Origin: a virus
Virus record (IMG/VR): IMGVR_UViG_3300012012_000704
Location: 1 to 27,049 of that record
Direction: 5' to 3' (one strand)
Length of the DNA: 27,049 nt
This document shows, piece by piece, positions 1,411 through 24,778 of this stretch. Under the pieces are notes generated by a model. It did no database searches. It was not told the DNA's origin and saw nothing but the letters and a program-made list of their open reading frames with translations. Every line of letters begins with the position of its first letter. Positions within the stretch are counted from its first letter, which is position 1. The position numbers and the translations under genes are program-made.

Positions 1411-1627
1411 ATTTAGATAATATTAATTTTGTTAATAAATCTTTTATTTCGTCAATATCATTTTTAATGTTTTTTACATCCTCTTCTATTTGTTTTGATT
1501 TTTCTATTTCTTTTATTTTATCTTCTTTTGCTTTTAGATATTTTTGATATTCAAAGTCAGAACAGTTGATAATAGCATTGGTGTTTTCATCACGAAATAA
1601 AAATTTATTATTTTCTACTGGTATCAT
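1409..1627 (-). CDS. Small coiled-coil protein (72 aa)
   Basis: This 72-residue protein starts MIPVENNKFLFRDENTNAII, a start I recognise from small proteins near tail genes of cyanomyoviruses. Residues about 28-70 are highly charged, with Ile/Leu at heptad-like spacing (KIKEIEKSK, VKNIKNDIDEIKDLLTKLIL), consistent with a parallel coiled coil. The start overlaps the stop of the DUF4815 gene as ATGA, so it is probably made by coupled translation. A coiled coil between a giant baseplate protein and fibre genes could be a trimerisation or attachment peg, or a small assembly chaperone. Both are inferences and no function is established from the sequence. Confidence 0.75.
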   Translation of the reverse strand: MIPVENNKFLFRDENTNAIINCSDFEYQKYLKAKEDKIKEIEKSKQIEEDVKNIKNDIDEIKDLLTKLILSK

Positions 1628-7600: not shown

Positions 7601-9105
7601 TCATTGATCGCATCGACAAGATATCCAGACGCTCCACTATTTTTTCCTTTAATAAATGCTGGTAATGTCTGAGATAAAGAAGAATTTAAGGTTAAAATTG
7701 TATATGTTTGTATATCATACAATGATATTTCATATTGAGTTGTTGCATTAACGTGTGGACTATTTTTTAATTTAAAATCATAAACTCTAGAAACGCCAAT
7801 TTGTTCTCCCGAAGATATACCAGCAGTTGCAGTTCTTCCCGTATATAAATTTACATGAGAATATGTATTAAAACCAACTGGAACCGAACCAGTTACATTA
7901 TTTAAAATTATTTGTCTGCCAAGATTAAATGGAATTGCTTGATTGTAATCGTTTCCGGTAGTTCTTGGTTTTTCAATATCAATTATCACATTATCGATTG
8001 TTTCTACTTCATAACCTCTTATATAAGCTTTTCCTGGACTTACTGAAAGGCAAAGTAAATCTTTTGATACTTGATTTCCTTGTTTTGTTTTTTGGCCTTC
8101 AAAATATATTCCATTATTTCCAGTCCTGTTATTTAAGCATTCCTTTGAATCTATATCAAATGGCTTAACATAATAATCACCACTTTCGTCATATGTTCTT
8201 CTTGCAAATTCATCACGAATGAAACTATATTTTGTAGTATCTGTAAATTTTACTAATATTCCATTTTCTACTCTTATAAGTTCAACAAAATTTTCATCAT
8301 TTATATCTTCAATATTTTTTTTAATAAATGATGTAGATATTTTTAATCTATCTGCTCCTGGAGCTGCATAATTTGAAAAACCCTGAGCATTATCAAATAA
8401 ATCAAGATATTGATCAGATGCTGTAACTATTTCTTCATTAATTAAAAGTCCTATTCTATAACTTGGTCTATTTGTATATTGATCAAGTATTACTGTTTGC
8501 CTACCTACAGTTACAAAAAAACCATTAACGAAATAGATACCTTCTTCGATTTTAGCAGCAGAACCAACAGCAATAGAATTTGAAATTATTGAAGTTGCAA
8601 ATGTTGTTCCACTTCTTATTGTTGATAATGAATAAGAAACATCTTCTAAAGATATTAAATTTTCTCCATCTACAAATGTTTTTGTATTAAAATCGACTGT
8701 ACCAGAACTTTGATATTTAATATAAAGTGTGTAGTTGCCATTATCAGATTCTACGTCTGTGATATAATTTTCTACTATTGCTTTAACGCCACTAATTTCA
8801 CCTTGAATTAATTTTCCAACCAAACTTTCAATATAAAGAGAAACAGGAAGACCCAAATGAGATTCATCTATTTGAACACAAGTATATTGTGGATCATATG
8901 CTGATTGTCCAGGAATAACCATGGCACCTTCTTTAAATAGATGCCTACCAAATTTTTCAACTTGATTTTGTAATATCGACTGTAATGTTGTTAATTCTCT
9001 AGCTTGTATTGGAGTTCCGGGTTTAAATAAAACTCTTTGATAATTGTTTGAATCGGAATAATCATCAAAATATGGTGATACATTTAAATTGGTGTTTTGT
9101 GGCAT
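1624..9105 (-). CDS. Giant DUF4815-domain baseplate/tail structural protein (2,493 aa)
   Basis: The N-terminus contains RVLFKPGTPIQARELTTLQS (about residues 24-43) followed by FGRHLFKEG, the signature start of DUF4815 phage structural proteins. GKAYIRGYEVE (about 355) and YYLPRIDRLFLDKDG (about 1032) continue the same family pattern to about residue 1220. Next come a low-complexity Gln/Asn/Thr linker with a hexa-threonine run (about 1300-1375), a segment FTAFFDNIDVTKYIIPKLLE (about 1420), and a conserved block from DPLAQSFEV to YVVWISAMAGDG (about 1660-1775). Two GxGY modules lie near 1890-1960, and a KDEIIGYT...GIVRG module near 2113. It follows gp8 by 6 nt. In T4 this position holds gp9-gp10, but I cannot show homology to either. 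It is probably a peripheral baseplate protein. The leader has only weak AAAGA as a ribosome site. Confidence 0.85.
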   Translation of the reverse strand: MPQNTNLNVSPYFDDYSDSNNYQRVLFKPGTPIQARELTTLQSILQNQVEKFGRHLFKEGAMVIPGQSAYDPQYTCVQIDESHLGLPVSLYIESLVGKLIQGEISGVKAIVENYITDVESDNGNYTLYIKYQSSGTVDFNTKTFVDGENLISLEDVSYSLSTIRSGTTFATSIISNSIAVGSAAKIEEGIYFVNGFFVTVGRQTVILDQYTNRPSYRIGLLINEEIVTASDQYLDLFDNAQGFSNYAAPGADRLKISTSFIKKNIEDINDENFVELIRVENGILVKFTDTTKYSFIRDEFARRTYDESGDYYVKPFDIDSKECLNNRTGNNGIYFEGQKTKQGNQVSKDLLCLSVSPGKAYIRGYEVETIDNVIIDIEKPRTTGNDYNQAIPFNLGRQIILNNVTGSVPVGFNTYSHVNLYTGRTATAGISSGEQIGVSRVYDFKLKNSPHVNATTQYEISLYDIQTYTILTLNSSLSQTLPAFIKGKNSGASGYLVDAINESSTMKLYQVSGSFVKEETIEINENIERTIIDIRDYNFSDVHQIVGNGVSFTGDPLLSYNISIAPSAATFTISSISGGISTITSSNQNFYTGIKIGDIVSYSKTGENVATFNKVNAINTSGRSLSIVSLPSVSGICSGNLPSSQITTNDLKKVTLEVLNTSDVSLYSKINKSNVANLDLTGSDITIRRSSTVTVSNGGCSLNSLLTSADLTFVPFDEEDYNLTFTDGSVEELSSQKVDISNKKLFNISKNGEARFTYTLNKINAKTKKKIFNRCSSIVVNKSISTSSINGLSYSQTYGLRVQDEEISLNVPDVSDIIAIIESSTDGNPSLPSLQLLNISSNLLNAVKGELIVGNNSGAVATLVSSVGGNTVDIVYLNENLFTVNETVIFQESKIQASVSSLFPGDKNIKNNYIFDNGQRSEYLDFSRIIRKPDGIAPSKRIRIIYNHYTVSSSDTGDFVGVNSYDKDRYERDISFVDGIRLSDVLDCRPRISNYSGSFSPFDFKSRIFEPSNGSSTDIFAKDKNINLSYDYYLPRIDRLFLDKDGVFIVKKGIPSLTPKLPNGLDTSLEIATLYLPAYVFDMSNVKISLATHKRYRMKDISSLDKRLTNVEYYTSLSLLESDTQNLTIRDETTKLDRFKCGFFVDNFKSYNGGDIANSQYKSSVDANAGELKPQPYTTSIDLLLGSESYLGIGENSNPNADLRFVTDLGSNDIKRVGDVVCLNYTEVVLVKNEYATTDCNVNPFHVSTWIGGIELNPSSDTWIETRKTKRPLEVEGSYTSAMQQLNADTTTGLSPIDWGAWETTWSGVTDQSTSDPVFTSQTGSTLVEQNSFQSGGFVNNGQNFGIPITTTNTFQNSFINFSNQTTTTTTNQSRQGIQYKVSPKTNSVNLGDRVVSREIVKFMRSRNIEVIAKRLLPFSQFTAFFDNIDVTKYIIPKLLEVSMISGTFSIGETVTGQLGSKSIKFRLAKQDHKYGPYTSSIDPYTSNPYEEKSTISSAYSSTTKILNVDTASLELQSESSFYGCIDIGMKLIGKSSGAEANVKDLRLISDKFGVFIGSFFIPDSLSPSAPEFTTGTKTFALSTSKTNESFSGSTSQSKAQSNFSSSGTLDNVEDVTLSIRNAEISRIAQTDVPRSSSTTDVRLVSSITSNFSTTQNTVYVDPLAQSFEVTDDNGVFVTKCDIFFKNKSTADLPVTLQIRTMRDGSPTQVILPFGEVVLDAKDISISDNGLIPTTFTFPSPVYLGKNEFALVLLTASKEYVVWISAMAGDGRKSIVFSTIGTKDEKTVSQQPLLGSFFKSQNGSTWDSSQYEDLKFTLYRANFVTTSASVRFYNPNLDVGNDQVVSLRSNPIQMYSKSSFIGIGTSISSADQSSLVSGVKITQTNNANFSSKLLKVLGGISTGTPGTLTITNPGTGYTNTSKLYSNTDLVSLSGFGRGAKVNLTINGGVAVAATVSVGGTGYATGDILTISPENTDNLGKNLILSIPNSSGIITSVNSLIVDNIQGQLISNDPTKTLKYGNNNVILNSNITSVSEITDGLRFKVNHNNHGMYSSQNKVILSGIESDLAPLSLSASYSKTSSGNTPISFTSSVGILTTFENIPVGAGNTGYILIKDEIIGYTTADTATNTITGIVRGTIPESYDANQLVFKYEMNGVSLKRINKVHTISNDYNIDLDEYSIKLDQTTEGLNRSTANNEHPELFFNETKSGGTYEAFSPVVGSTKGPKASQNIQFNIVRPIVGTLLPQSTEISAKIRTFSGTSADGNEISFVDQGFEDISLISDNILTSPRIIASEINEKAKLSDYPAAKSFTLEMVLSTDDTKVSPMIDLDRVNIITTMARLNKPISNYAKDPRVNSSIRDPHAAIYISKIIKLKQSADSIKVLFDAYRDASSDIRVLYRIFRDDTLSNQQIFELFPGYKNLDNNGKVINQKDNDGLSDTLVLPSLGFNDFGNYEFTANDVPLFNGLQIKILMSGTNQALYPKIKDLRVIATKS

Positions 9106-9111
9106 TTTCTT

Positions 9112-10683
9112 TTAAAATTCCAATACGATTTTTACGTCTTCTTTTTGACTAGAAGATCTGGGAATTGCTGATCTATTATCTATGTATATGATCTCTCCGG
9201 ACCTTTTATTATATTCTGCTGTTGCAATACCGGAATTAAAAGTAATTCCAAGTTGATATGTTCGATTATTTTCGACTATGGATACTCCATTAAAAGTAGA
9301 ATCAATTGATAATGGTGTAGTTCCATTCATAGATGAACCAGTAATCAATAAACTACCACCAGACCCAGGAGATGAAGTAAATTTATTTATTTTATATCCA
9401 ACACCAGTTGTCCCTAATCCAACTGGTTGATAATATTTAAGAACTCCTGTAATATTATCCCAAGATGCTACAAAACCAATAGCAGTAGTTCCAGTACTAA
9501 TGGTTTGAGTAATCGTAGAATCTACAGCATAAGTTGTTGCTGTGGTTCCAGCTCCACTAAACTTGAGAGCATTAAGACCACTCACCAAAGAAGTATTTAA
9601 AATTTCAGTATTACTTCCTGATATTGTAGGATTTTTTATAATACCAACTCTTGCAAAATCATTACCAGAAATAATATCAGGATTTGATTCTAAAGTTTCA
9701 TATCTAGAATATACAAGAACACGATATGCTCCTAGTTCTCTGTAAATATCATATCCATGCCCACCTTTTGGTGGTATGATTACATCAAATATAGCAAATT
9801 CTGAGGTACTATTTGTCAAATTTGTAATATTTGGAGCACCTGGTTCAAATTTTATAGTGCCATAAGTATAACCATTTCCACCATCAGTAATATAAACTTC
9901 TGATACTTTTCCAAAAGAATCTGTAGTTACTGTTACTTTACCCCCAGACCCATCTCCAAGAATTGGTATATCTGTAAATGTTGAAGATGTTGGGGCATAT
10001 CCATTTCCTCTTTGTTTAATGACAACTGCGTGTATTTTTCCGTCTATAGCATTTTCTTTGACTGATATACTTTCTCCATCTATTCCCCAATTTTCTGGAA
10101 CAGGTATAAATTCAATTGAATCAAATTTTACAATTTCTGATGGTTTGATTGTATAAAGATATTTCCAAATATATTCATCTCCACTTGTTCCTGCTGGTCT
10201 TTGTTCTAGGTCAACAAATGTTGGTTGGTCATATGATGGTCTTCCTTTTTCATGATCTTTATCTGTTCCATTATGAATGCAAATATAAACTCTTAAATCT
10301 TCATTAACTACATAGTAATTTGCTTGATATAAACTTGACTGTTGTGTTACTGGTGTTTGGTTATAAATATTATAATCATTTCTATACATTTCATATGTTG
10401 TTCCAGCAGTCCAAGTAACTTTTCGAATCATTCTACGAACATCATTCGTAGTGACTTTTTTCATTGCAATTATTGTATCTTTGATATCGTTTTCCTCTTT
10501 AAATCCATCTAGTGGAGATGGACCAGTTCCCCAAGAAGATGATCCTCCAGCTAAAGAATTTGTAGAATTCGGTTGACCAATAAATGTATAATATCCATTT
10601 GAAGTATTTCCAACTCCAACAAAACTTTTAACAAAAGTTTCGGCATTTAATATTCTAAATTGATCAGATATAATAGCAGGCAT
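9112..10683 (-). CDS. 8: Baseplate wedge subunit gp8
   Basis: This 523-residue protein begins MPAIISDQFRILNAETFVKS, the typical cyanomyovirus gp8 start, and continues with YYTFIGQPN, DVRRMIRKVTW and YYVVNEDLRVYICIHNG, all matching the gp8 wedge family. In T4, gp8 dimers bind gp7 and gp10 in the wedge. It is longer than T4 gp8 (334 aa). Two GxGY repeat units (GNGYAP near 223, GNGYTYG near 270) and a Gly/Thr-rich beta region make up much of the extra length. The ATG is fixed by family fit, yet no Shine-Dalgarno is visible: the leader reads CAAATAAA directly before ATG. Two late promoter motifs lie just upstream. The next gene follows after 6 nt. Confidence 0.9.
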   Translation of the reverse strand: MPAIISDQFRILNAETFVKSFVGVGNTSNGYYTFIGQPNSTNSLAGGSSSWGTGPSPLDGFKEENDIKDTIIAMKKVTTNDVRRMIRKVTWTAGTTYEMYRNDYNIYNQTPVTQQSSLYQANYYVVNEDLRVYICIHNGTDKDHEKGRPSYDQPTFVDLEQRPAGTSGDEYIWKYLYTIKPSEIVKFDSIEFIPVPENWGIDGESISVKENAIDGKIHAVVIKQRGNGYAPTSSTFTDIPILGDGSGGKVTVTTDSFGKVSEVYITDGGNGYTYGTIKFEPGAPNITNLTNSTSEFAIFDVIIPPKGGHGYDIYRELGAYRVLVYSRYETLESNPDIISGNDFARVGIIKNPTISGSNTEILNTSLVSGLNALKFSGAGTTATTYAVDSTITQTISTGTTAIGFVASWDNITGVLKYYQPVGLGTTGVGYKINKFTSSPGSGGSLLITGSSMNGTTPLSIDSTFNGVSIVENNRTYQLGITFNSGIATAEYNKRSGEIIYIDNRSAIPRSSSQKEDVKIVLEF

Positions 10684-10692: not shown

Positions 10693-10710
10693 TATTTATG
10701 TTTATTTATT
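10693..10710 (-). promoter_or_regulatory. Two tandem T4-type late promoter motifs upstream of gp8
   Basis: The minus strand carries AATAAATA (10710-10703) and CATAAATA (10700-10693), both exact NATAAATA matches, in and at the edge of the 22-nt gap before gp8. The distal copy contains the TAA stop of the giant gp7-like gene. The proximal copy lies only 9 nt from the gp8 ATG, so a transcript from it would be nearly leaderless, and the distal copy would give about 14 nt of leader. AT-rich DNA produces such octamers by chance, so function is unproven. Confidence 0.5.
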
Positions 10711-13700
10711 TACTTTTAAATAAACCTCTGGTTCTTGTAACTTCTGGAGCAGTCGAAAGTCCAACTAAACCATTATTAGTGTTTACTGTAAATGATTTTG
10801 GAGAACCAAGTGATCTATTTTGATAATCATATATCTTACCCCAACTGTAATTTCCAAAATAACCATTTGTTGTTAATCCAGGATTTATTGTAAAATCAAT
10901 TCCTAATGGTGGCGAAATTAATGGATTGGGAAGAAATCTACAAGTGACAGTTACAATTCCTACCACAGAGGAATTAATTGGTTTTTCTACTGCCTCTGCA
11001 TAATAAACACCATCGATAAATGAAGTTGCAGTACCAACAACAACATTATCAGTAGTTATACAAGTTAAGGCATGTCCACACTGAATATTGCTATTATATA
11101 TTACAAAATAATCTCCTACCGAAATTCCACTTGATTGTATACCATAACTATTAAGGGCAGAATATCCTATTCCTAATTGAGTATTATCATAAGATTCTGT
11201 TTTTAATTTAAATTTTATTCGTGGTATAGTATTAGGTCCGGTAATTAGTGATATTCCAGACAAAGAAGTATCGATGCCGACTATAACACCAAAATCACCC
11301 TTTGCCTTGATTGATTCGATTTCTTCTATTTTTGTTTTTTCTGATTGAATTAATACTTTAGGTGGGTCTGATTGATTATAACCAAATCCTGGATTTGTAA
11401 TTGTAATACCTGTTATGATTCCAGATGTTGCATTTGATGTTGCCGATGCAAAATTATAACCAGGAATTGAATAGAATGAATGTCCAGTAATGGATGATGG
11501 TGGCGAAAGTTCATTATACATTGTAGTATTAGATCCAACAGAAATATATCTATCTTCAGTAATTGAATAATTAATATCTTTTAATATATTTATTTGGTCA
11601 TCTGTATAAAGTTTGAGAGTCCATTGTGTGAGATTGTATGAGTAATATAATCCAGCTGGTCTGTTGTTAGTCGGTGAGGTTAATACTGTATATAATTTAT
11701 ATAATGAATTGTAATGTATGGTTGTGAGATTAGCCGAAGAAATATAAACAAGATCCTGATAACCTAAAAGATTAGATGTAATATTATTCCAAGTATTTCC
11801 ATCCGTAGAAGTTTTAATTGAAGCCTGAGAACCAACAGCTACAAATTGAGATCCAGTCCAAATGACTTTATTTAAACTGGAACCGTTAAGTCCAGATATA
11901 ACTGACCAACTATTTCCTCCATCAGTACTTCTTACTCCACCATTATCACCAACTACAACAATAAGACCAATACCTATTGCAATCGATCTCAAATTACTAG
12001 TTGTATTTGATGTTACTAATTTAAATGAAGTACTACCAACTCCAACTGCATCAAAAATCGAACCACCAGCACCAACACAAATCCATTTATCGTAAGCTGA
12101 TGAATATTTAATATCTTGAAGTCCAGCAACATAACCACTTTCTAATGGGACAGTATTACCTCCAAAAATATTGATATATTCAAATTTTTTAATTTCTGAC
12201 CAAGATGATATTGTTGTACCAAATCCAACAGATCTTACAATTTTTCCTTGTTCTCCAACAGCAATATAGTAATTAGTTAACCCCAACCCAACAGAATTAA
12301 AATTAATTGTTCCGGCATATCCAATATTTGACGTTGTATTGAATGATTTTCCATCTATTGAAGTTACCACAATTCCACTTTGCCCAACTGCAACTATGGG
12401 ATTTCCAATAACCACCGACAATAATGAAGAAGTTGTCGATAAACCGCTCGTAGGTAACCAATTAAAGATTGGTTCTTTAATTTGCGATTGTGGATGAGAA
12501 AACGAAACTGTCGGAGAATTTATTGTATATCCACTTCCTCCAGTAGAAATTGCAACATTAGAAATTATACCTGCATCTGATACTACTGCAGTTCCAAGTC
12601 CTGATGATGTTTCTTTATTATCAATTATTAATATATTATCTTCTGACCCTTGAATTGGATCAACATCATTAAATAAAGGATATGCATTATTTACATATAT
12701 TGACGTATCTGTAGTATTTAAGTTTTTAATAATTCTAGTTGTAGGTCTAATTGTCGGAATTAAATTTGGTCTTGCTTTAGAAACTAAAGAACCAAGAATA
12801 ACTCTATCTTCTGTTTGTTTTGTCCATTTTAATGGTCTAATTTTATCCGAATTTGTATTGATACCAATACTATCATAATTATAAGTATCAAGTTGATCTG
12901 ATGCTACAATCTTTTTAACCACTCTTTCGAATTGTTCTCTATCCAAATTGTCATTAATATTTTCACCAATTTGAACAATGTCTCCCTCTTTAATTGTTTT
13001 TAGTGGAGTAACAGTTTCTATGTCTAAAGACGAACCTCGGTAAAATATAACAGAACATAATGAATTTGGTTTTGGTGCTTCACTAAAAACTATTCTAGAT
13101 CCAAAGAATGTATAAGATTCACCAGGAACTTGAAGTATATCATTCAGGTATATAAAAATATTATTTTGCAATACAAGATCAGATCCAGGTTCCTTTCTCA
13201 AATCAATTATTTCAGTATTTCCACCATTAGTTTGCGTTAATGTAAATTTTTTGCGAAATCCATCAAAATATTGAGAAAAATCATCAAAATAAATAAATTG
13301 TCCAGGATAAAACCCACTAAATTTATCTGTTAAAGTTTCTGTCACTGTAAGTTTAAATTCTTCAAATCCTGCACCAATCGTTGGATTTGTAGTTAATCCA
13401 ACTACTTTAAGAATATCCCCAACTTTATATCCAACTCCAGGATTATCCAAATTAAAACCAATAATACCTGAACCAGATCCAACTTGAACTGAAACTTTTG
13501 CATTGGTTCCAACTCCAGAGGAACCACTAGTATATGCAACGCCAAGATTGCTGTATGCAAGAGGTAAGTCAATATTTACATATACTGGTGAAGATGAAGT
13601 ATACCCGATTCCACCACTAACAATTGAAAGTGAAGATAAACTACCACCAACACCAACAGTGGACGTTATAGAAGCACCAGAACCAACATCAGAGGCAATA

Positions 13701-16700
13701 CTAATACTTGGAGGAGTTCTATAACCACTACCACCACCTTTTATAGTAATTGAGGTAATTGTCCCTGCAGATGAAACTGATGCTGTTGCTGCTGCTCCAA
13801 TCAATGGTTGATAACCAAATCCAGTTGTAATTGCTACATTTACAATTTTTCCGGCATTTGGGACACCAGTCAAAAACTTAATAGTATTATTTCCGGGAGT
13901 ATCGATCAAATAATCTACTCCTGGTCTTTGGAAAATATTGTTTATAAGTATGATTGGATTATTGTTAATGTCTGTAGAACTATTTGTATTTGTATATAAT
14001 CCAACAACACCGTTTCCATTTGATTTTAAATTAAATTGTGTTGCTGCAATTCCAGTAAAATCAGCAGAAATATCATCTAAAATTAAATTTTTATCATTTG
14101 GATTTGAAGAATCAAATGCCCTAGAGAATGCTCTACCAGAGAAGAAAGATGATACTTTAAATTGAGGATCTGTTGATGCTATTGCTGGTCCATATGGTGG
14201 AGTAGAAAAATATATTACATCATCTATGATATTAAAATCACCAGTATGAACAGTAACCGCAGAACCTATTGTGTGCCCAGCAGCAACTGTTCCCATAAAT
14301 GAACGAGCAACATCTATTTTATTTGTAGATCCAATACCAACAGAAATAACTTTTAAAAATTCATTGTTAATTTTTAAAATGTCTGATCCTGATACAGAAT
14401 TAATACCAGAAGAAACATATATTGCTGTTGATCCAATACCTACTGATGTAGAAAGACCTATTGTGATATTTTTTTGATGAACTGCACTTTGAATTATATT
14501 ATCTATAGAAATTATTACATTTTCATTTTGATTTTTAAAACTAAATGATTGAGTTCCAGAACCAACAGATGTTAAATCAAAAGGAGATGAAATTGCCGTA
14601 GGTACTCCACAAAGTTGAAAATTATTTACGTCAATTTTACGAACAAAAACATTTGATGGTAAAGTTGTTCCGGGTGCATGAAATGTCGCAGCAATTCCTA
14701 TAGAGGTTCCAGCTCCAGAATTGTAAATTATTTCTTGTCCACTTTGAAATCCATGATTTGGAATAATAAATTTATTATTTGCCAAATCGACGATTGTAGT
14801 AGCAGAACCAACAAATTCTTTATAAAATAATGGATTTCCTGCACTTTTAAGTTTAAATGAAGACAAACCAACAACTTCTCCGCCAATTGTACTAGTAATT
14901 CCTGTAAATTGTGAACTAATATCATCAATTGATAAAACTTTATTGGTCTTATTTAATATAAAATTCATTAATTCAATTCCTTCTGGAAAATATATTCTTT
15001 CTACAGATTTGTCATCTAATACATCTTCTTCATATACCATCGAAAAATTATGTTTTGTATATAAAGAATCAAAGCTATCCATATTTACAAGTAATGTTGT
15101 TTCTGATGATGCAATAGAAACTTTCATATTTGTAGATTTAGCAATTCCAAGATTGACTGGACCAATACTGGGCATTGTAATTATATCTAAATCGGAAAAT
15201 TCTTTAAATCCAGATGGATGTATAATTGACTTTACAGATTCTTTCCAAGTCGAATATGGAACTTCACTTTTGATTGAATATGAAAATTTTTGATAATAAT
15301 TATTATCTGATATTCTTTGTTGATAATCATTCAAAAAACCAATTTTATCATCAAAATTATTAATTTTGTCTCTAGAAACTCCCAAAGATGCAGAAAGATC
15401 AAATGTAGATACAAATTTTACTACTCCATTTAATTTTGATTTTTCGCCATAAAGTTTATCGCCAACATTTAATACTCCTTTAACATTTATCAATCTTAAT
15501 TGATTTATGTCATTATCCCAACCATCTTCCATTACTTGTGCTGAAAAATTCGTAGATGATACTTTTTCTCCAGAAAAATATTGAGCATCATCAATTATAT
15601 TCATTTCAAAAATAGGCATATCTTTTTTATTGACAACATAACCAAGAGTAAAATCTGAATTATATACACCAAATGGTTTTGTTTGCAAACCATTCATATT
15701 ATAGTTTATGATTCTATTTGTTGTGTTTATTCCTGTTACTGTGAAAAAGTTATAATCATAATCTTTCGAATTAAAGGTATTTTTAGTTTTAGTTGCATCA
15801 GTCAATCTACATTTTTCGATAAAAATGCTATCACCAATTGCAAATGGAAATTCTGTTATTGTTGACCCATATCCAATTGCGATTGGTTCAAATAAAACTG
15901 GATCATTTACTAAATTTATTATTCCATCTCCATTATTATTCACAGTTATGTCATCAATTTCATATCCATTCGAATTATTATATGGAACAATCTTAAATGG
16001 ATTTTTTAAATCAAAAACATTTTTTGTTATTTCTACACTAATTACAGATCCACCTTGAATTTTCGATGTCAGTTCAATTTGATCATTTCCAATAACTTTT
16101 AATTTTGGTGGAGTATTGTAATTTTTTCCTCCTGTTAAAATACCAATAGAATCTACTCTAGATATTTCTTTAATAATACAAACAGCAGGAACACTCAATT
16201 GTGGCAATATAGTAGGATCTGTAGGGTAATCAAATCCATTTTTAATTCTATCAAATGATAAAATTTCTCCAATTTCAGATGAAATTGGTGTTAATAATGC
16301 AGATTTTCCAGAAGAAGTTTTAACGAAATTTATAGATGGAATAATTGGATAAGATATTCCTTTTGAATTAATTTTGACTTTTGATATAGAACCACTTGCA
16401 TTTTTAGAATCTGTATCATAAAAGACTGAAGAAATTCCTGTCGTTTGTGTATATTCTACATATTCTGGTTTTTGTTTTAAATTAAATTTAAAAATATTGG
16501 AACTGACACCAATAATAGAGTGTTCACCTGATAGGTTACTTGGTCGAATATCGATTCGATTAAAACCAAAAACTTCTTTATCTATAGATAATTGATTTTT
16601 TTCTGGATCTGAAGATACTGGAGTAAATTTATAATAAAGTGTTTTTGGAATGAATCTTTCTTTAGTTTGTAAACTTACTGAGGTATTGGTTCTTCCGATT

Positions 16701-19700
16701 GCTAATGGTTCTTTTTGTTTTTTGTCAATTTCAAATTGCTTTTTAAAATCTTGATCTATATAAAAATTTAATATAAATTTATCATTATTGTTTATAAACA
16801 AATTTGATATATCAAATACTACTGTATTTCCTTTTGAAAATGATAGTGGTGGATTTATAAGAGCAATATTTTGAGTACCAATTCCAGCATTAGAAAATGA
16901 TATTCCAAATCCAATAGTCACGTCATGTGAATACTTACAAAGTTGTATTTTATCTGGGTGTTCTTTTAACACATAATAAACTGATTCATTTTCTAAACCA
17001 CCAATAGCAGTAGTTCCAGAGTAATAAACAATTTTATCTCCATTCTTTAATATATTAGATCCAATATCAATTGTTGATGTAGAACCGGTAGAAACTTTTG
17101 CTGTAGAAAATCCTATAAGATCGGTTGTAATTTTTCTATTTTTTTTATCAAATCTAAAAGATACATTTTCTGTTCTTGATGGTATAATTGTAAATTTAAT
17201 TTTATCCCGATCAATTAAATTGTGAGGTTCTGAAGTAGACACGATTCCAGAATAATTTTCAACTCTTGCAGTTACTGTTTTATATGTTGTTTTGAATGAA
17301 TTTAAATCACTAACATTCGAATTGGATATAAAATATAAAGAATTTAATGTACTTCCAATTCCAACTGAAGTAGTAAAACCCAATGTAGATATTCCTAGAT
17401 AATTATTTCCCAAATTTACAGCATATATTGTTTGGTTTTTAGTTAAACTGAATGCAAATGAAGGATTGCTATCATATACACTCAATCCTATACCAGAACC
17501 AACAGGACAATCATATGTCAATTGTTGTCCAGTATAAAATTTATGATTCGGAATATAAATCACTCGTGATGGAACAAATCTATTCACTATATTACTTACT
17601 CCAATACCAACGAGTGAATAATTAGTTCCAGTAGTTCCAAATCCAACACTATTTTTTGGATTAAAATATACTTCTTGATTTTCTGGTAAAAATGAAGAAT
17701 TTAGTTCAACTTCAGTAAATTCAAACTTTTTGGGAAGCAATTTGACACTATCAATTCCTGCAGTATGAATTCCGCCAGATGCTAATCTGTTCACTAATAA
17801 TTGTGACGTTTCTGGTATAATATTTGTGATGGTTAGTATTTCTGTTCCGATTCCAATTGAATCATTAACTTCAAAACCAGAAATATCTGTAACATTTATA
17901 TTTGTAGAAACTCCAGTAACACCAAAATTCGGTAAACTAGATGTCAATCCGACCACTTTTTGATTTACAACTATAGTTTTTGTACCTTCAAGTTGAAATA
18001 ATGAAAATGTAGATATTCCTGAAATAATTACTTTATCATTAGATACTAAATTATGTACAGTTAAAGCAATTCCTACAATTTTATTGCCTCTAGTTGCAAA
18101 TACAACATCATTGAAGGTAGATACTCCAACAATTAAATTTGATATTGTTTTTCCAAACACTCTATCAATTTCCGCACCTGCACCTACTCCTTCTTTTTCG
18201 TTTTTAAAAATTATAGCATCTTTTATACGATAATTTTCACCAGAAGAATCAATTGATATAGATGTAATACCAGATTTTTTAATTTGTTTTACTATAAAAT
18301 CTTGTTTTAACTCTGGAGTATTTTTAGTTAAAACATCATAACCAGAGTTTTCAGAATCCAAAAAGTAATTTGCTGTATTTCTTATTAAATTAAGATTCTT
18401 CAAGTCTAAATCTTGAGTAAAATTAGGATCAAAATTTTCAATAACTGGAATATCTTTAAAATAATTTCCAATTACATATGGATATTTTGGTTTTGCTTCA
18501 TTTTCATTATTTCCATTAGATATAATATCAAAAGTCGCAAAATAGGCATATGTTCCATATGGATATTCCGTTGTTTTACAAAATCTTCCATTATATTCAT
18601 CCAAATCTCCAGAATTATCAAACTTATAATCGTTTACAAAATAACCATTGACAAAAGAATTTGGTCTTTCTTTATCATTAGGTTTAGGTTTTTTTGTATA
18701 ACTAGAATTAATTAATTTAATACTAGTGCCAGTTAAACTTGTATATCCATATGGACCATAAATCGGATTTCCATCATAAGCCCATCCAATAATTGGACTA
18801 TGTTGGAGTCGTGTTTTTTCGGTATTATTCTCTTTAATATTATCACCAATATTTTTTCTTAATGCTTTTGGTAAGTAAAAATTGATTACTTTTAGTCCAA
18901 GAGATTGGTCAATATTTGGAAATGTTATTGTTTCGTCATCTCCACCATAAGATAATATTGTATCTTTATTTTTTTCAATTTGATTGATTTTCCACTCAAA
19001 TACATTTGCAATAAATTGTAAATCTTTTCCTCTTCTGACTACTTCTGTTCTTGTGTTTGATTTTTTATACCCAACACCACCATCAATTATTATAAATGAA
19101 GTAATTTTTCCGTCTGTAATAACTGGTTTAATGTCAGCATATTTTCCTTCCCCATAAATTATTACTTCAGACCCATTATCATATCCTTTTCCCGAAAAAA
19201 TAATTTGAATATCTGTAATAGATCCATTTATAATTACCGGTTTTAGCAAAGCAGAAGTAATTGGTTTTAAATTAACATTTGGTCTTCTGTGGAAATTAAT
19301 AATCTCAGAAGAACCATAAGAAACCCCACCATTTTCAATATAAACACTCTCGGCACTTCCAAGCACTATTGGAGTCAGCACTGGAGATACGATTGATGTT
19401 AAACCTATTCCCGATAAAGTCTCTATTTTAATACTAATTGGAGGATATGCAAATGTGTGTGTACCAACTCCTAAAGAATTAAATTTAATATATTTTTTAT
19501 TAATATAATTTAAATTAGTTGATGTAGTTCCAATACCAGCATCAGATAGTTTAAATTTATCTTTATCAATAATTGTAATATAATATTCTGTAGTAGTGGA
19601 TAATCCAGATATTGAAGTACCAGTATGAGAATATACAACAAAATCACCATTTTTAAATCCATGCATTTTGGCAAAAATGTAATCATCAAATGTACTAATT

Positions 19701-22492
19701 CCAGAAATTTGATAATCTAAAGACGGATATGAAACAGAAGATACTTTAACTAATCTATTTGAATATCCAGAACCTGAATTTTTAACATAAATTTTATTAA
19801 TAATATTTTTACTATTAAGTGTTCTAAATTCATGAAATCCAGAACTTATACCAGTAATGTTAATAGTGTTAATTCCTGCTAAAACGTCTAATCTATTTTT
19901 ATGTAATTTGATTTCTTTTGGATTTATAATATTTACAAAATATTTCGAGTTATCTATTAATCCAGGAACAACTGTATTCCCATTTGAATGATAAACTATT
20001 TCTTCATAATTGACAAAATTATGATTATCTATAAATGTTATTTTATCTGTGGAGGTATCAATCGATTCCAAATCTGATTTAAATGTTGCAGTAATATTTG
20101 TTTTAACTAAATTGGATTCTAATAATGCACCAGAACCATTACCACCTATTAAAGTTAATGTTGGTTTTTTGGTATATCCAATTCCTGGAGAATTTATTTT
20201 TACATCTTCTAATGATCCAGAAAGAATTAAGTTTGCTTTACATTCAGATCCAATGTTTTTTATGTTTAAACCAATACCTACAGAATCACTTATAATTAAT
20301 TCGGGAGGATTTATTACATCATAATTTTTTCCTGGATTTGTTATTTGGATCGAATCTACTTTTCCATAATAAATATTTTCATCAAATAGAGTAGGTGAAT
20401 ATAACTCTACGCCATTAATAAATAATCCAAGATTTCTATTGAATGTGGTTCTGCTAGTTTCATTATCAAAATAATTAAGATTGTCGGTTAAATTAAATTT
20501 TCTTAATATTTTTTGATCTTTAATAGTTTTATTTTCATAACCAAGTTTAAAGATAAAACCACTTGTAGTCCTAATACCAACTTTAATGTATTCTTCGGCA
20601 AATAAGTTAGTATCACTATAAGATAATGATATATTATTATCGTCGATTTTTTTTACAAAATAAATTCCAGATTCAATTCCTACAGAAGTTTTTGGGTCAT
20701 AGTAAATTTTATCTCCAGATGATAAATTATGATCATTTATTGTCAAAATTGTAGTTGGCTCTGTTAGTATAGGAACAACTATTTTCGTATCTGTAGAACT
20801 AATTTGATAATTTGGAAAACCAGAAGTTGTTACATATAAATATTTTTCTTCTTTGTCAATATAAGTATTTTGAATTGCTGAATTTATACTTGATATACCA
20901 ATAAAATTTGAAAAATTAGTTTTATTAATTGTTTTTTGAATTCTAATTTTATTAACATCTGAATTTTGTAATCCACTTTCACCTGCATCCAAATCAATTT
21001 GTGTAGGATTTATAATCTGAGTAATGTTGGCAGATACATTTTTTGGAATTGTGGTTGCAATATTAATAACAACCTTTTCTCCTTTATAAAATTTAATATT
21101 ATCTTTTAATGTTATAGTATAATTACCACCACCACCAGATGTTATTCCACTTATATTATGATATGTTGGTATATTGTAAATCCAACTATCAAAATTTGTA
21201 TTTCCTGATAAGTTTTTTCCAAAAGAACTAAGTGATATTTTATCTCCAATTTTTAATCCAGAAGAATTTTTAGTATCAATTTTATCAATTACACTAATAA
21301 TTCTAAATTCATTTAAAGATGGTGTATCTGATTGATTGTCATATGCATATGCTAATTTTTTTTCGTAAATAAAGTCTCCGAAATATAAGGTTTGTCCAAT
21401 ACCAGAAACATTTAAAAATTGAGTGCTTGTTTTGTCTGTATAATTTAAAGTTAATTGTGTTAAATTTGCTTTTTGTGCAATAATTGTTCCTGACTGTGCA
21501 AATCCAACTGTAGAATCGACAGTAATTGTATTATTTGATGGAAGAACAGTTTCAACTACTTTAGTTGATCCTGTAATTTCAAAGTTTCCAGTAAAAGATG
21601 TAGAATCTAAAGATATTTCATAAAAATCTTTATTCTTTATTGGTCTATACTCAACATTATAGATAGCAGCAGTAACTGTGCCAATCCCACTTATAAATTG
21701 ATTTAATGTTTCACCATTCAATGAAGTAGCATTTTTTCCAGAAATTTTTTCAACTAAAATATTTTTTGTTGCAAAATAATTACTATCAGATGGCCTCAAC
21801 ATATATTCTTGAGGATTTATTGTTTCTATTTCTGATCCATATAATATCGAAAAAAGAATTTTAAAAGATTGTGATGTTCCTTTTGAAGAATAAAAATCCC
21901 TTGCTCTTGATAAAATATTTTCCAAAGAAATATTAGGAGAAAGATTTCTTTCTTCGAAACCAGGCAGAAACTGATATTTGAACTTTTTGAATATTTCAAA
22001 AAAGAATATAAAATTTAAATTTTTTAAAGGTGTATTTTTTTTATGTTCAGATGCTTCAGTAATTGAAAAATTTAAAAGTTCTGGAGTATTATCTTTTTCT
22101 AAACTATCGATACCACTAAATCCACGAATACAACCAGTAAATTTATTTGTTGTTATTCCTGTGTAAGTAATAATTTCATTATCAATTTTAATTAATCCAT
22201 ATTTACTTGGATATCCAATTGTATGAGATACGGAAATAGTATCATCAAAAGATAAAACATCAGAAGTCAATACAGATGGAAGATTTAAATCTATTAATGT
22301 TTCACTATTAAAATTTTGTATTTTTTTATATTTTTGAATATTAGATGATAAATCAACTATTCCAGTTTGATGTTCCTGTGACGTATAATATTGATTTAAA
22401 AATTCTTGAAAAATTGGTGATTCTTCATTCAAAAATTCAGGAATTTGTGAATCTAAAATATGATTGATTTTTATTCTTTTAATTTCCGTCAT
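10706..22492 (-). CDS. 7: Giant baseplate wedge protein, gp7-like, with YHYH-like and beta-propeller domains (3,928 aa)
   Basis: The position between gp6 (1-nt gap) and gp8 is that of T4 gp7, the wedge initiator. The N-terminus (IPEFLNEESPIFQEFLNQYY, then YSSKGTSQSFKILFSILYG to about residue 245) fits cyanophage gp7-type proteins. At 3,928 aa it is nearly four times T4 gp7 (1,032 aa). An EIITYTGI...GCIRGFSG module lies near 104. Repeated HGF/GD..YY modules lie near 577, 817, 940, 1644, 1815 and 2577. About sixteen GxGY units are spread along the chain. A YHYH-like domain spans about 1230-1320, WKESVKSIIHPSGF lies near 2415, and Q-PG-Y modules near 2850 and 3115. A beta-propeller-like region with Asp-boxes (STDGGNSW at 3522) spans about 3340-3660. 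The C-terminus is APEVTRTRGLFKSK. The frame has no internal stop, so it looks like one intact gene. The ribosome site is weak (AAGA). Confidence 0.85.
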   Translation of the reverse strand: MTEIKRIKINHILDSQIPEFLNEESPIFQEFLNQYYTSQEHQTGIVDLSSNIQKYKKIQNFNSETLIDLNLPSVLTSDVLSFDDTISVSHTIGYPSKYGLIKIDNEIITYTGITTNKFTGCIRGFSGIDSLEKDNTPELLNFSITEASEHKKNTPLKNLNFIFFFEIFKKFKYQFLPGFEERNLSPNISLENILSRARDFYSSKGTSQSFKILFSILYGSEIETINPQEYMLRPSDSNYFATKNILVEKISGKNATSLNGETLNQFISGIGTVTAAIYNVEYRPIKNKDFYEISLDSTSFTGNFEITGSTKVVETVLPSNNTITVDSTVGFAQSGTIIAQKANLTQLTLNYTDKTSTQFLNVSGIGQTLYFGDFIYEKKLAYAYDNQSDTPSLNEFRIISVIDKIDTKNSSGLKIGDKISLSSFGKNLSGNTNFDSWIYNIPTYHNISGITSGGGGNYTITLKDNIKFYKGEKVVINIATTIPKNVSANITQIINPTQIDLDAGESGLQNSDVNKIRIQKTINKTNFSNFIGISSINSAIQNTYIDKEEKYLYVTTSGFPNYQISSTDTKIVVPILTEPTTILTINDHNLSSGDKIYYDPKTSVGIESGIYFVKKIDDNNISLSYSDTNLFAEEYIKVGIRTTSGFIFKLGYENKTIKDQKILRKFNLTDNLNYFDNETSRTTFNRNLGLFINGVELYSPTLFDENIYYGKVDSIQITNPGKNYDVINPPELIISDSVGIGLNIKNIGSECKANLILSGSLEDVKINSPGIGYTKKPTLTLIGGNGSGALLESNLVKTNITATFKSDLESIDTSTDKITFIDNHNFVNYEEIVYHSNGNTVVPGLIDNSKYFVNIINPKEIKLHKNRLDVLAGINTINITGISSGFHEFRTLNSKNIINKIYVKNSGSGYSNRLVKVSSVSYPSLDYQISGISTFDDYIFAKMHGFKNGDFVVYSHTGTSISGLSTTTEYYITIIDKDKFKLSDAGIGTTSTNLNYINKKYIKFNSLGVGTHTFAYPPISIKIETLSGIGLTSIVSPVLTPIVLGSAESVYIENGGVSYGSSEIINFHRRPNVNLKPITSALLKPVIINGSITDIQIIFSGKGYDNGSEVIIYGEGKYADIKPVITDGKITSFIIIDGGVGYKKSNTRTEVVRRGKDLQFIANVFEWKINQIEKNKDTILSYGGDDETITFPNIDQSLGLKVINFYLPKALRKNIGDNIKENNTEKTRLQHSPIIGWAYDGNPIYGPYGYTSLTGTSIKLINSSYTKKPKPNDKERPNSFVNGYFVNDYKFDNSGDLDEYNGRFCKTTEYPYGTYAYFATFDIISNGNNENEAKPKYPYVIGNYFKDIPVIENFDPNFTQDLDLKNLNLIRNTANYFLDSENSGYDVLTKNTPELKQDFIVKQIKKSGITSISIDSSGENYRIKDAIIFKNEKEGVGAGAEIDRVFGKTISNLIVGVSTFNDVVFATRGNKIVGIALTVHNLVSNDKVIISGISTFSLFQLEGTKTIVVNQKVVGLTSSLPNFGVTGVSTNINVTDISGFEVNDSIGIGTEILTITNIIPETSQLLVNRLASGGIHTAGIDSVKLLPKKFEFTEVELNSSFLPENQEVYFNPKNSVGFGTTGTNYSLVGIGVSNIVNRFVPSRVIYIPNHKFYTGQQLTYDCPVGSGIGLSVYDSNPSFAFSLTKNQTIYAVNLGNNYLGISTLGFTTSVGIGSTLNSLYFISNSNVSDLNSFKTTYKTVTARVENYSGIVSTSEPHNLIDRDKIKFTIIPSRTENVSFRFDKKNRKITTDLIGFSTAKVSTGSTSTIDIGSNILKNGDKIVYYSGTTAIGGLENESVYYVLKEHPDKIQLCKYSHDVTIGFGISFSNAGIGTQNIALINPPLSFSKGNTVVFDISNLFINNNDKFILNFYIDQDFKKQFEIDKKQKEPLAIGRTNTSVSLQTKERFIPKTLYYKFTPVSSDPEKNQLSIDKEVFGFNRIDIRPSNLSGEHSIIGVSSNIFKFNLKQKPEYVEYTQTTGISSVFYDTDSKNASGSISKVKINSKGISYPIIPSINFVKTSSGKSALLTPISSEIGEILSFDRIKNGFDYPTDPTILPQLSVPAVCIIKEISRVDSIGILTGGKNYNTPPKLKVIGNDQIELTSKIQGGSVISVEITKNVFDLKNPFKIVPYNNSNGYEIDDITVNNNGDGIINLVNDPVLFEPIAIGYGSTITEFPFAIGDSIFIEKCRLTDATKTKNTFNSKDYDYNFFTVTGINTTNRIINYNMNGLQTKPFGVYNSDFTLGYVVNKKDMPIFEMNIIDDAQYFSGEKVSSTNFSAQVMEDGWDNDINQLRLINVKGVLNVGDKLYGEKSKLNGVVKFVSTFDLSASLGVSRDKINNFDDKIGFLNDYQQRISDNNYYQKFSYSIKSEVPYSTWKESVKSIIHPSGFKEFSDLDIITMPSIGPVNLGIAKSTNMKVSIASSETTLLVNMDSFDSLYTKHNFSMVYEEDVLDDKSVERIYFPEGIELMNFILNKTNKVLSIDDISSQFTGITSTIGGEVVGLSSFKLKSAGNPLFYKEFVGSATTIVDLANNKFIIPNHGFQSGQEIIYNSGAGTSIGIAATFHAPGTTLPSNVFVRKIDVNNFQLCGVPTAISSPFDLTSVGSGTQSFSFKNQNENVIISIDNIIQSAVHQKNITIGLSTSVGIGSTAIYVSSGINSVSGSDILKINNEFLKVISVGIGSTNKIDVARSFMGTVAAGHTIGSAVTVHTGDFNIIDDVIYFSTPPYGPAIASTDPQFKVSSFFSGRAFSRAFDSSNPNDKNLILDDISADFTGIAATQFNLKSNGNGVVGLYTNTNSSTDINNNPIILINNIFQRPGVDYLIDTPGNNTIKFLTGVPNAGKIVNVAITTGFGYQPLIGAAATASVSSAGTITSITIKGGGSGYRTPPSISIASDVGSGASITSTVGVGGSLSSLSIVSGGIGYTSSSPVYVNIDLPLAYSNLGVAYTSGSSGVGTNAKVSVQVGSGSGIIGFNLDNPGVGYKVGDILKVVGLTTNPTIGAGFEEFKLTVTETLTDKFSGFYPGQFIYFDDFSQYFDGFRKKFTLTQTNGGNTEIIDLRKEPGSDLVLQNNIFIYLNDILQVPGESYTFFGSRIVFSEAPKPNSLCSVIFYRGSSLDIETVTPLKTIKEGDIVQIGENINDNLDREQFERVVKKIVASDQLDTYNYDSIGINTNSDKIRPLKWTKQTEDRVILGSLVSKARPNLIPTIRPTTRIIKNLNTTDTSIYVNNAYPLFNDVDPIQGSEDNILIIDNKETSSGLGTAVVSDAGIISNVAISTGGSGYTINSPTVSFSHPQSQIKEPIFNWLPTSGLSTTSSLLSVVIGNPIVAVGQSGIVVTSIDGKSFNTTSNIGYAGTINFNSVGLGLTNYYIAVGEQGKIVRSVGFGTTISSWSEIKKFEYINIFGGNTVPLESGYVAGLQDIKYSSAYDKWICVGAGGSIFDAVGVGSTSFKLVTSNTTSNLRSIAIGIGLIVVVGDNGGVRSTDGGNSWSVISGLNGSSLNKVIWTGSQFVAVGSQASIKTSTDGNTWNNITSNLLGYQDLVYISSANLTTIHYNSLYKLYTVLTSPTNNRPAGLYYSYNLTQWTLKLYTDDQINILKDINYSITEDRYISVGSNTTMYNELSPPSSITGHSFYSIPGYNFASATSNATSGIITGITITNPGFGYNQSDPPKVLIQSEKTKIEEIESIKAKGDFGVIVGIDTSLSGISLITGPNTIPRIKFKLKTESYDNTQLGIGYSALNSYGIQSSGISVGDYFVIYNSNIQCGHALTCITTDNVVVGTATSFIDGVYYAEAVEKPINSSVVGIVTVTCRFLPNPLISPPLGIDFTINPGLTTNGYFGNYSWGKIYDYQNRSLGSPKSFTVNTNNGLVGLSTAPEVTRTRGLFKSK
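11510..12470 (-). other. Beta-propeller-like region with Asp-box/BNR repeats in the gp7-like protein
   Basis: Residues about 3340-3660 hold a recurring unit of a hydrophobic strand, then (A/V)VG..G.(I/V), then a strand ending in an S.DG.(S/T)W-type turn. Examples are AVGQSGIVVTSIDGKSF, AVGEQGKIVRS, VVGDNGGVRSTDGGNSW and AVGSQASIKTSTDGNTW. STDGGNSW fits the Asp-box S-x-D-x-G-x-T/S-W. The pattern is that of BNR, sialidase or Ycf48-like propellers. Five to seven blades are plausible. Such folds usually bind ligands, proteins or sugars, but no catalytic residues are evident. Confidence 0.6.
18520..18806 (-). other. YHYH-like domain inside the gp7-like protein (residues about 1230-1325)
   Basis: H1231 begins HSPIIGWAYDGNPIYGPYGY. 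About 65 residues later comes LDEYNGRF, and then EYPYGTYAYFAT. These three blocks, in this order, are the hallmark of YHYH-domain proteins (usual form HSPLIGYAxDGxPIYGP, LDECNGR, YPxGTYAYF). The Y-H-Y-H tetrad that names the family is not visible upstream, so this may be a reduced version. The trailing PKYPYVIGNYF is also typical of phage copies. The biochemical function of the domain is not known to me. Confidence 0.7.
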
Positions 22493-22493
22493 T

Positions 22494-24377
22494 TTATCTT
22501 GTATAGTGTCCGTTTAAGTAACTCGATGTTGATAGATATTCAGTAGCAGAAGTATTTTCTCCTGAACTGATTACATCTTGTATAGTATTTACCACAGTAT
22601 TAAACATATCTATTTTTAGGTAAATATCCTTTAACGCAAGTATATCATTTGATTCTGGCATTGCTTGTATTTCTATTGTATTATTTGGTAATGATGTTGA
22701 TGAAATATTTACTATATTTAATTTAATTTCTCCATTCAAATAATCAACTGTTCCTGCATTCGAAGATACAATTGTTGGAATATTATTTACAAGTTTAAAA
22801 AATATTATCTTTCCAGTCAAAGAATCATTTGGAGAATCAGTCAAGTATAAGGTATCTGCAACATCTTTAATATTAAATCCTGAAGATTTGATATTATATT
22901 TTTCTGTTTTTTGGTGAAATTTATTTCCAAAACATATTTCATATGTAGCAAACTTATTCAATTCTGCAGAAAGATCCCTTCTCATTCTAACTTTAGTAAT
23001 ATTTGAAGTAATTGCTCGATTAGTATTATCAATTATTGTATTTAATTTACTATATTTGAATCTTCCTCCAAAATTATTTACTTCAGAAGAATTTGAATAA
23101 AAAGTTAAACTATTTAAAACTTGATTTTTAAGTAAAACAGGATCAGAAGTAAATGATGCGTCATAATAAATTGTAGAATCAATTTCGACATATAAGTACT
23201 TCAAATCGATAATTTCCGGTTTAATCCCAGCAATTGAATATTGTTTTAGTTTTTTCTTAATTTCATTTTTTGTAATTTCTGATAGAAAATTTCCATTTCT
23301 TGGTTTGATTGAAATAAAAACTTTTCCATATTGTGGTGGTGTCAGTTCATCGCCACCATATGCAGTCACTGAATCTACATTCGAATATAGATAAGGTATC
23401 AAACCTCTATAGTCATTTGCAGTTACAGCTCTATATTGAGAAGCATATACTCTTGGAGCAAGATATTTGATTGAGTCTATTGTTTCAATATCATCTCCAT
23501 TTTCTGATGATACCAGTGTAGTAATTAAAGAAATACCACTTGTAATATTGTTTTTGTTATTATCTTTAATATTTCCAGAAAAAGTAAAGTTTGCAGATCC
23601 ATCTGCAGATTTTCCATTAGTTACAATATAAGAAATATTAATTACACTACCATTTTCTGGTTTTTTTCCTATAAGATTATCACCAAATAAAATTTGATAT
23701 TTCTCATCTTCAATTTCTTGAATTAAAAATAATTTAGATGTCTTATCTACATTTATAATATTTTCATATAATGAATATACTTCAGTTACAGTTTTAGTAT
23801 TATTAGTATTAGTTGTAGTTACACGAATCGTTGATGTATCTACATTTGAATTTGGTATTATAAATTTTTGATTTGATTGACTATAATCAATTGTGTATTG
23901 TTTTGTTAAATAAGATCCTTCGTAAATATCTAAATTATTAAAAATTGCTTCCTTTAAATTATTTACAGGAACTGTTACATCAGATGGTATTGAGAATATA
24001 TAATTACCATCTTGAACTGCACCCAATGCAACTGGTCCTGCTTTTAATGTTACTGTTCTAGAATTATATGATTGTGTATTTACTGAAAAACTTATTTTTG
24101 CTTTGGAAGCTCTTTTTGAACGAGGCACATAACCAATATTACGAGCATGAGAAACTACATTTTCTCTTAATGTTGCACTATCCAAAAATGCTTCATTTGC
24201 CTGCATATTAGTATTATATGCAGTAATATAGGAATTGTATGCAAGAACATCAATCAGAACAGAAAAATTAGATCCTTCAAAATCAAAATCAGTAAAATTA
24301 GAATTTGATCTCAGATAGTCTTTAATCTGAGTACGTAAATCATTAAAATCTAAATTGGTAAATTGATTGAAGGACAT
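22494..24377 (-). CDS. 6: Baseplate wedge subunit gp6
   Basis: This 627-residue protein is close in size to T4 gp6 (660 aa). The N-terminal block NMQANEAFLDSATLRENVVS, followed by ARNIGYVPRSKRASKAKISF (residues about 58-97), is the conserved gp6/baseplate-J signature. VTANDYRGLIPYLYSNVDSV, then AYGGDELTPPQYGKVFISIKP (about 318-360), is the second family hallmark. In T4, gp6 dimers form the ring that ties the six wedges together around the hub. Its ATG shares one base with the gp25 stop (TAATG), and its own stop lies one base before the giant gp7-like gene, so gp25, gp6 and gp7 are probably translated as a coupled series. The product is cytoplasmic until assembled. Confidence 0.95.
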   Translation of the reverse strand: MSFNQFTNLDFNDLRTQIKDYLRSNSNFTDFDFEGSNFSVLIDVLAYNSYITAYNTNMQANEAFLDSATLRENVVSHARNIGYVPRSKRASKAKISFSVNTQSYNSRTVTLKAGPVALGAVQDGNYIFSIPSDVTVPVNNLKEAIFNNLDIYEGSYLTKQYTIDYSQSNQKFIIPNSNVDTSTIRVTTTNTNNTKTVTEVYSLYENIINVDKTSKLFLIQEIEDEKYQILFGDNLIGKKPENGSVINISYIVTNGKSADGSANFTFSGNIKDNNKNNITSGISLITTLVSSENGDDIETIDSIKYLAPRVYASQYRAVTANDYRGLIPYLYSNVDSVTAYGGDELTPPQYGKVFISIKPRNGNFLSEITKNEIKKKLKQYSIAGIKPEIIDLKYLYVEIDSTIYYDASFTSDPVLLKNQVLNSLTFYSNSSEVNNFGGRFKYSKLNTIIDNTNRAITSNITKVRMRRDLSAELNKFATYEICFGNKFHQKTEKYNIKSSGFNIKDVADTLYLTDSPNDSLTGKIIFFKLVNNIPTIVSSNAGTVDYLNGEIKLNIVNISSTSLPNNTIEIQAMPESNDILALKDIYLKIDMFNTVVNTIQDVISSGENTSATEYLSTSSYLNGHYTR

Positions 24378-24778
24378 TATACCCTAGTTGGTTGTAAGAT
24401 AAACTCTATATTTTGAGTTGGAAATGGCAGTCCAACAATATCATAAGTAATTTTAATGTTTAAATCATTTGTATCGTCTGGGATTTCAATTTCGACATTG
24501 CGTAATAATATTCTTGGTTCGAAATTATTCAATAAGGTTGTAATTTCTTCTTCTAAAAAAGAAAATATATCAGAATTTCCTATTTCGAATAATGTATTAT
24601 CAACCGATGTTCCTATTAGATTATTAAAAAATCTTTCATTTAAACGAGTCCTGACAAGATTTATAACAGATTTTTTAATAGCATCTTCATTTTTTAAAAT
24701 AATTAAATCATTAGTAACTGGATGTTTCGTAAAAGATAAACTAATATCTTTAAAACTACGAGAAATTGTTACTGCCAT
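24377..24778 (-). CDS. 25: Baseplate wedge subunit gp25
   Basis: This 133-residue protein matches the gp25/gpW-like lysozyme-related wedge family in length (T4 gp25 is 132 aa) and motif. It contains DAIKKSVINLVRTRLNERFF, then NNLIGTSVDNTLFE (residues about 33-66), the usual R..ERFF.P..G..v...LFE pattern. The C-terminal half carries the beta strand pair EIEIPDDTNDLNIKITYDI, as is normal. In T4, gp25 binds gp6 and gp53 in the inner baseplate and helps set sheath polymerisation. The 35-nt leader is AT-rich and has no clear Shine-Dalgarno or exact late promoter octamer. The family start (MAVTISRSFKD) fits the chosen ATG. The stop overlaps the gp6 start by one base. Confidence 0.95.
   Translation of the reverse strand: MAVTISRSFKDISLSFTKHPVTNDLIILKNEDAIKKSVINLVRTRLNERFFNNLIGTSVDNTLFEIGNSDIFSFLEEEITTLLNNFEPRILLRNVEIEIPDDTNDLNIKITYDIVGLPFPTQNIEFILQPTRV

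Follow-up and report, generated by a model that had tools for sequence, protein, structure and literature searches.

The giant baseplate gene described here encodes a true and correctly placed member of a known protein family, already annotated as gp7 (PHROG_2885). Profile comparisons indicate that its conserved core is a homologue of the C-terminal core of T4 gp7 and is divided into two halves. Cyanophages are among the most abundant viruses in the ocean, and this oversized tail-baseplate protein occurs in most T4-like viruses that infect marine cyanobacteria. The gene was studied within a window of 27,049 bases, the whole stretch of DNA that was analysed, which is a fragment of a T4-like cyanophage.

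Locus and family membership

The gene occupies positions 10706..22492 on the minus strand and was assigned from its open reading frame and translation, its match to PHROG_2885 and its full-length homologues. The frame comprises 3,928 aa with an ATG start and no internal stops. It makes up 43.6% of the window, in keeping with an earlier sequence-only reading that had described one uninterrupted gene covering more than 40% of it. On the same strand, the gene is preceded by gp25 (24377..24778; PF04965) and the gp6 baseplate wedge protein (22494..24377; Pfam Gp6 domains, PHROG_219), and is followed by gp8 (9112..10683; PF09215, PHROG_438) and a VrlC/DUF4815-type structural protein (1624..9105; PF16075, PHROG_358). 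This minus-strand order of gp25, gp6, giant gp7, gp8 and VrlC matches that of annotated cyanophages and includes the gp25-gp6-gp7-gp8 arrangement of the giant cyanophage gp7 family. The match to PHROG_2885, labelled ‘baseplate wedge subunit’, scores 2,453 bits and falls into four stretches, the best of which covers aa 5-2530.

Other genes of the window include a small gene of S-adenosylmethionine decarboxylase (speD) type beside the baseplate genes (25117-25458) and, upstream of gp25, a PHROG_3704 gene labelled ‘ferredoxin’ (25478-26134) and a glycosyltransferase-like gene (26469-27047). The VrlC-type protein has one weak GSGY-type module in common with gp7. At the opposite end, a fibre-like frame with weak likeness to a short tail fibre family is cut by the window edge (2-805).

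Complete, uninterrupted copies of the gene are present in other IMG/VR contigs, with products of 3,888 aa (90% identity), 4,070 and 4,073 aa (80%), 4,068 aa (68%), 4,077 aa (61%) and 4,094 aa (50%). A 3,884-aa protein of the cultured phage S-CAM9 is co-linear with window aa 2-3920 in one piece. These uninterrupted copies and the one-piece alignment rule out an assembly chimera, a concern raised in the earlier reading, which on these sequence comparisons can be regarded as excluded for practical purposes. Relatives of aa 1-2900 were found by tblastn in 470 phage records, nearly all of them from cyanophages.

The predicted protein is 3.8 times the length of T4 gp7 (1,032 aa), which agrees with the nearly fourfold length given in the earlier reading. 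In a non-random sample across Kyanoviridae, however, gp7-position proteins measure 3,048 aa in S-PM2, 3,495 in ACG-2014e, 3,884 in S-CAM9, 4,067 in Bellamy, 4,156 in S-SM2, 4,454 in P-HM2, 5,172 in S-SCSM2R, 5,195 in P-SSM2 and 6,483 in Syn19, and a protein of 6,619 aa has been described in S-SZBM1 (PMC9146016). The window protein is clearly no outlier within this sampled and published range of 3,048-6,619 aa, and its length is ordinary for the family. Distant relatives are shorter, with 503 aa in Stenotrophomonas phage Marzo, 607 aa in the freshwater Synechococcus phage BUCT-ZZ01 and 1,007 aa in Sinorhizobium phage phiM12.

With the giant gp7, or ‘baseplate wedge initiator’, of Kyanoviridae (PHROG_2885; S-CAM9, S-SSM7, P-SSM2), the window protein shares its position, co-linear sequence, split core, beta modules and YHYH-family domain. 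Identity to the nearest cultured relatives is ~43% over aa 1-2900. The window protein differs in being without an insert at aa 2609 and in carrying a propeller cassette that most of its relatives lack.

A wedge core in two halves

Two blocks are common to the giant and the short proteins, an A-half (aa 1-262) and a B-half (aa 2305-2458). The first part of the A-half, aa 1-57 (22322..22492, minus strand), is common to Marzo, BUCT-ZZ01 and phiM12 and is probably helical; the second part, aa 165-262 (21707..22000, minus strand), contains the motif YSSKGT. A small beta module within the A-half (aa 77-124; 22121..22264, minus strand), recognised with a repeat HMM, is absent from the short relatives, and a second copy of it was found by the same approach at aa 314-363. 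The B-half (15119..15580, minus strand) carries the motif HPSG. In Syn19 (L010:2655-22106; 6,483 aa), the A-half is further split by an insertion of ~500 aa.

Profiles of each half, built with T4 excluded, were compared with PDB sequences. For the A-half, the top match among 177,635 PDB sequences was T4 gp7 725-758 (E=1.8e-6), and the top match of the B-half profile among all PDB sequences was T4 gp7 865-890 (E=0.018), a score that is weak taken alone. Both halves thus have T4 gp7 as their top PDB match, in co-linear order. A local test, in which the profiles again contained no T4 sequence, recovered T4 gp7 at E=3.4e-5 (A-half) and 0.01 (B-half), calculated for 100,000 sequences, and none of ~400 reversed decoy sequences was reported at E up to 10. 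Conversely, a search with T4 gp7 670-1032 recovers the A-half from almost every family member and the B-half from the majority, with their order kept, while T4 gp7 1-670 gave no significant match to family members. A single-sequence phmmer search of the whole protein against the PDB returned no matches, and T4 gp7 was reached by profiles only.

Between the two matched stretches of T4 gp7 lies its domain V (766-861; 96 aa by Pfam). The YS[ST]KG and HP[SV]G motifs are 148 residues apart in T4, 250-310 aa apart in the short proteins of Marzo (503 aa) and BUCT-ZZ01 (607 aa), and 2,223 residues apart in the window. The Pfam family PF23786 (Baseplate_wedge) matches the window protein at 21.3 bits (E=2e-4), under the curated cut-off of 27, which is a score threshold and not a biological defining feature; the two blocks that this model matches lie apart in the window protein, and the short relatives pass with 29-33 bits. 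The Pfam families Gp7_helical, 5th and 6th gave no match in the window protein.

Because the N-terminal 640 aa of T4 gp7, its helical domain and domains V and VI are unmatched, we classify the window protein as a gp7-type wedge protein and not as a copy of T4 gp7. The two proteins are alike in lying between gp6 and gp8, in the co-linear order of both core halves and in bearing an insertion at the same site, which in T4 is domain V. They differ in that neither T4 aa 1-670 (FN3 and the part after it) nor domains V and VI are detected in the window, where the insertion measures ~2,040 aa instead of ~100 and is joined by a 1,470-aa C-terminal extension. The gp7 proteins of Marzo, BUCT-ZZ01 and phiM12 also follow gp6 directly and contain the A-half and B-half by profile, but they lack the C-terminal extension and the greater part of the inserted modules.

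These results modify the earlier description of a gp7-like N-terminus with large additions behind it. Homology to gp7 and the presence of large additions both stand. However, the two halves match the C-terminal core of T4 gp7, so the presumed N-terminus is the start of that core, corresponding to T4 aa ~725-758 in the C-terminal third, and is itself interrupted. The additions form one internal insertion, at the place of domain V, plus the extension at the C-terminus.

Insertion, C-terminal extension and a predicted propeller cassette

The insertion (aa 263-2304; 15581..21706, minus strand) carries GSGY- and PHGF-type modules and a YHYH-family domain. Module HMMs identified 11 GSGY-type modules, 6 of PHGF type and 2 of a third type in the protein, whereas whole-protein BLAST for internal repeats gave nothing beyond the self match. 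The YHYH-family domain (aa 1228-1322; 18527..18811, minus strand) matches PF14240 at 81 bits against a cut-off of 25. An AlphaFold2 model of aa 930-1420, covering beta modules and this domain, reached pLDDT 59 and pTM 0.38 and had no usable PDB match. Frames of cyanophage gp7 type, 900-2,100 aa long and with a YHYH domain that lacks the family motif, also occur in contigs labelled as Gammaproteobacteria, Euryarchaeota, Flavobacteriales, Planctomycetaceae and others (L126-L129, L131-L134, L136, L137, L144, L146, L168 and L169). They probably derive from phages and were assigned to bacterial or archaeal genomes by binning.

The C-terminal extension of ~1,470 aa (aa 2459-3928; 10709..15118, minus strand) is a separate polypeptide in some relatives. 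Its beginning overlaps a hot spot of fission and insertion at aa 2440-2720 (14333..15175, minus strand). Here the gene is split in DSL-LC02 (2,514 + 1,432 aa), S-SSM7 (3,007 + 340 + 3,001 aa) and several IMG/VR loci, and relatives carry inserts of 204-354 aa at aa 2609, which makes the part behind this point a separable unit. In S-SSM7, a gene with a T4_gp9_10_N domain (L003:27054-28076) lies exactly between the two pieces of the split giant gp7.

Within the extension, aa 3340-3690 (11423..12475, minus strand) form a predicted Asp-box beta-propeller cassette with a YCF48-like fold, assigned from AlphaFold2, Foldseek and its distribution. The predicted model has a pLDDT of 82 and a pTM of 0.80. 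Its best PDB matches by Foldseek are YCF48 structures (E=7e-11, probability 1.0), and its best viral match is gp7 of S-SSM7. The likeness to the YCF48 Asp-box propeller lies in the predicted fold (TM ~0.7 by target length); identity is 12-16%, and a function in photosystem assembly is not implied. Of the features recognised in the sequence-only reading, the chains of small beta modules are real, and the YHYH-like domain and the propeller-like domain are supported.

By direct tblastn, the propeller was found in just 5 phage records, compared with 470 for the rest of the protein, and most giant-gp7 cyanophages are without a detectable copy. Profile searches revealed further, diverged copies in S-CAM9 and DSL-LC02; in Bellamy the propeller is absent. 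No sequence relation was found between the propeller and T4 gp7. The fastest-changing stretch of the protein, aa 3481-3680 (11453..12052, minus strand), overlaps the cassette. Compared with the 90% relative, its dN/dS is 0.98, against 0.14-0.55 elsewhere in the protein and 0.32 overall; comparison with the 80% relatives gives 0.81-0.87. Most other close pairs show a dN/dS of ~0.05-0.3 in this stretch. Such ordinary constraint leaves a family-wide arms-race signal unsupported and assigns the rapid change to this lineage and not to the family. Judged from these ratios, the rate reflects a lineage-specific burst or relaxed constraint and is no proof of a general arms race. There is no sign that the propeller was simply acquired from a different lineage among those sampled, as L018 remains the nearest relative in that stretch too.

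Alternative explanations

T4 gp7 has been described as absent from cyanophages, with VrlC substituting for it (PMC7029224), and on that account the giant protein would be an unrelated structural protein. The phmmer search without a PDB match is consistent with this published statement. However, the window and S-SM2 each carry a gp7-position protein together with VrlC, the latter after gp8, and two independent, co-linear profile matches lead to T4 gp7. With VrlC placed after gp8 and the gp7 core located in the giant protein, the statement does not fit and is disfavoured; we regard the substitution as highly improbable. A different proposal would take the YHYH domain as a metal-dependent hydrolase and the whole protein as a baseplate enzyme directed against the cell wall. 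YHYH domains in general have been predicted to be tail-associated metal-dependent hydrolases (PMC7824862), and the PF14240 score of 81 bits agrees with such a role. Yet the YH.H motif, found 26-45 residues upstream of DG in 12 of the 12 bacterial YHYH proteins that could be inspected, is absent from the window protein and from the cyanophage and phage-like homologues examined. The Pfam match also begins at profile position 89 of 193, with the earlier part missing. The missing YH.H makes a hydrolase role unlikely in the cyanophage versions, and we give very little credence to an enzyme of this kind. One His and one Asp nevertheless remain conserved. The domain probably serves a structural or binding function.

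Two further explanations concern the outer parts of the protein. The C-terminal 1,400-1,500 residues might function as a protein of their own, whether released by cleavage or folded by themselves and attached non-covalently. That this part has its own gene in DSL-LC02, S-SSM7 and several IMG/VR loci, and that inserts occur at aa 2609 in relatives, argues for such independence, but the frame is unbroken here and in ~10 other loci holding the whole gene, and proteomic evidence of cleavage was not found; we consider this possible but rather doubtful. The sequence-only reading had envisaged a docking platform that replaces the separate peripheral proteins gp9, gp11 and gp12. T4-type versions of these three were not recognised in the window, and XM1 gp17 illustrates a gp7 orthologue able to hold spikes itself. 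However, their absence here says little, because the window is a fragment that ends inside the fibre-like frame (2-805) and also includes an L-shaped tail-fibre assembly-family gene (1037-1375). Moreover, Syn19 and S-SSM7 have separate T4_gp9_10_N genes in addition to a giant gp7, and in S-SSM7 this gene sits at the gp7 fission point. Replacement is therefore not borne out by the relatives, and we judge it unlikely.

Proposed role in the baseplate

The explanation that we favour, and consider probable, is that the window protein occupies the position of T4 gp7, XM1 gp17 and ‘triplex protein II’ as the wedge partner of gp6 in the T4-like cyanophage baseplate, with arms that reach outward and a propeller that makes contacts. 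The wedge of contractile tails consists of two gp6-type chains and one gp7-type chain. In the window protein, the two core halves would come together to build the portion that forms a bundle with two gp6 chains. At the point where T4 gp7 has domain V, the insertion would leave the core, and the C-terminal extension would leave it after the second half. These arms may extend outward as a shell around the baseplate where fibres dock. The propeller, an optional cassette that evolves fast in this lineage, may contact either the surface of the host or a fibre partner.

The XM1 orthologue of gp7 (242 aa) holds tail spikes via an internal loop and its C-terminus (PMC10457771). By analogy, the insertion and the extension of the window protein would form the outer wedge surface where fibres dock. 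XM1 gp17 and other minimal wedge proteins probably have the same role as the window protein, alongside a gp6-type dimer, and their extra parts are likewise internal and C-terminal (PMC10457771). In contrast to the window protein, XM1 gp17 is 242 aa long, and the likeness is one of probable role.

Published data on relatives are consistent with a structural role. The 6,619-aa S-SZBM1_208 was detected in virions by mass spectrometry with 71 peptides (PMC9146016), and T4-GC969, the cluster to which Syn19_088 belongs, is present in S-SM1 virions (PMC3037559). S-PM2d081 is encoded between gp6 and gp8 and contains the A-half (E=1.9e-66) and the B-half (E=1.2e-24); it gained non-synonymous mutations in co-culture with its Synechococcus host (PMC9910659). 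The earlier suggestion of a host-contact platform can be kept in part. Host contact by the propeller cassette is plausible given the dN/dS of 0.81-0.98 in comparisons involving the window, but the ratios are ordinary in most other close pairs.

More speculatively, the wedge core of T4-like phages may offer one open slot, at the place of T4 domain V, and a free C-terminus, from which marine cyanophages would have built a huge shell encoded by one gene, with a swappable receptor-binding propeller in place of or beside fibres; we put this forward tentatively. Our analysis locates the conserved core in a protein of cyanophages, from which T4 gp7 had been described as absent (PMC7029224), and finds this core split. 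The map of the split core and of the points at which its cargo exits may guide cryo-EM and deletion tests. The analysis further singles out one candidate domain for host contact, within a protein whose size otherwise makes it hard to approach.
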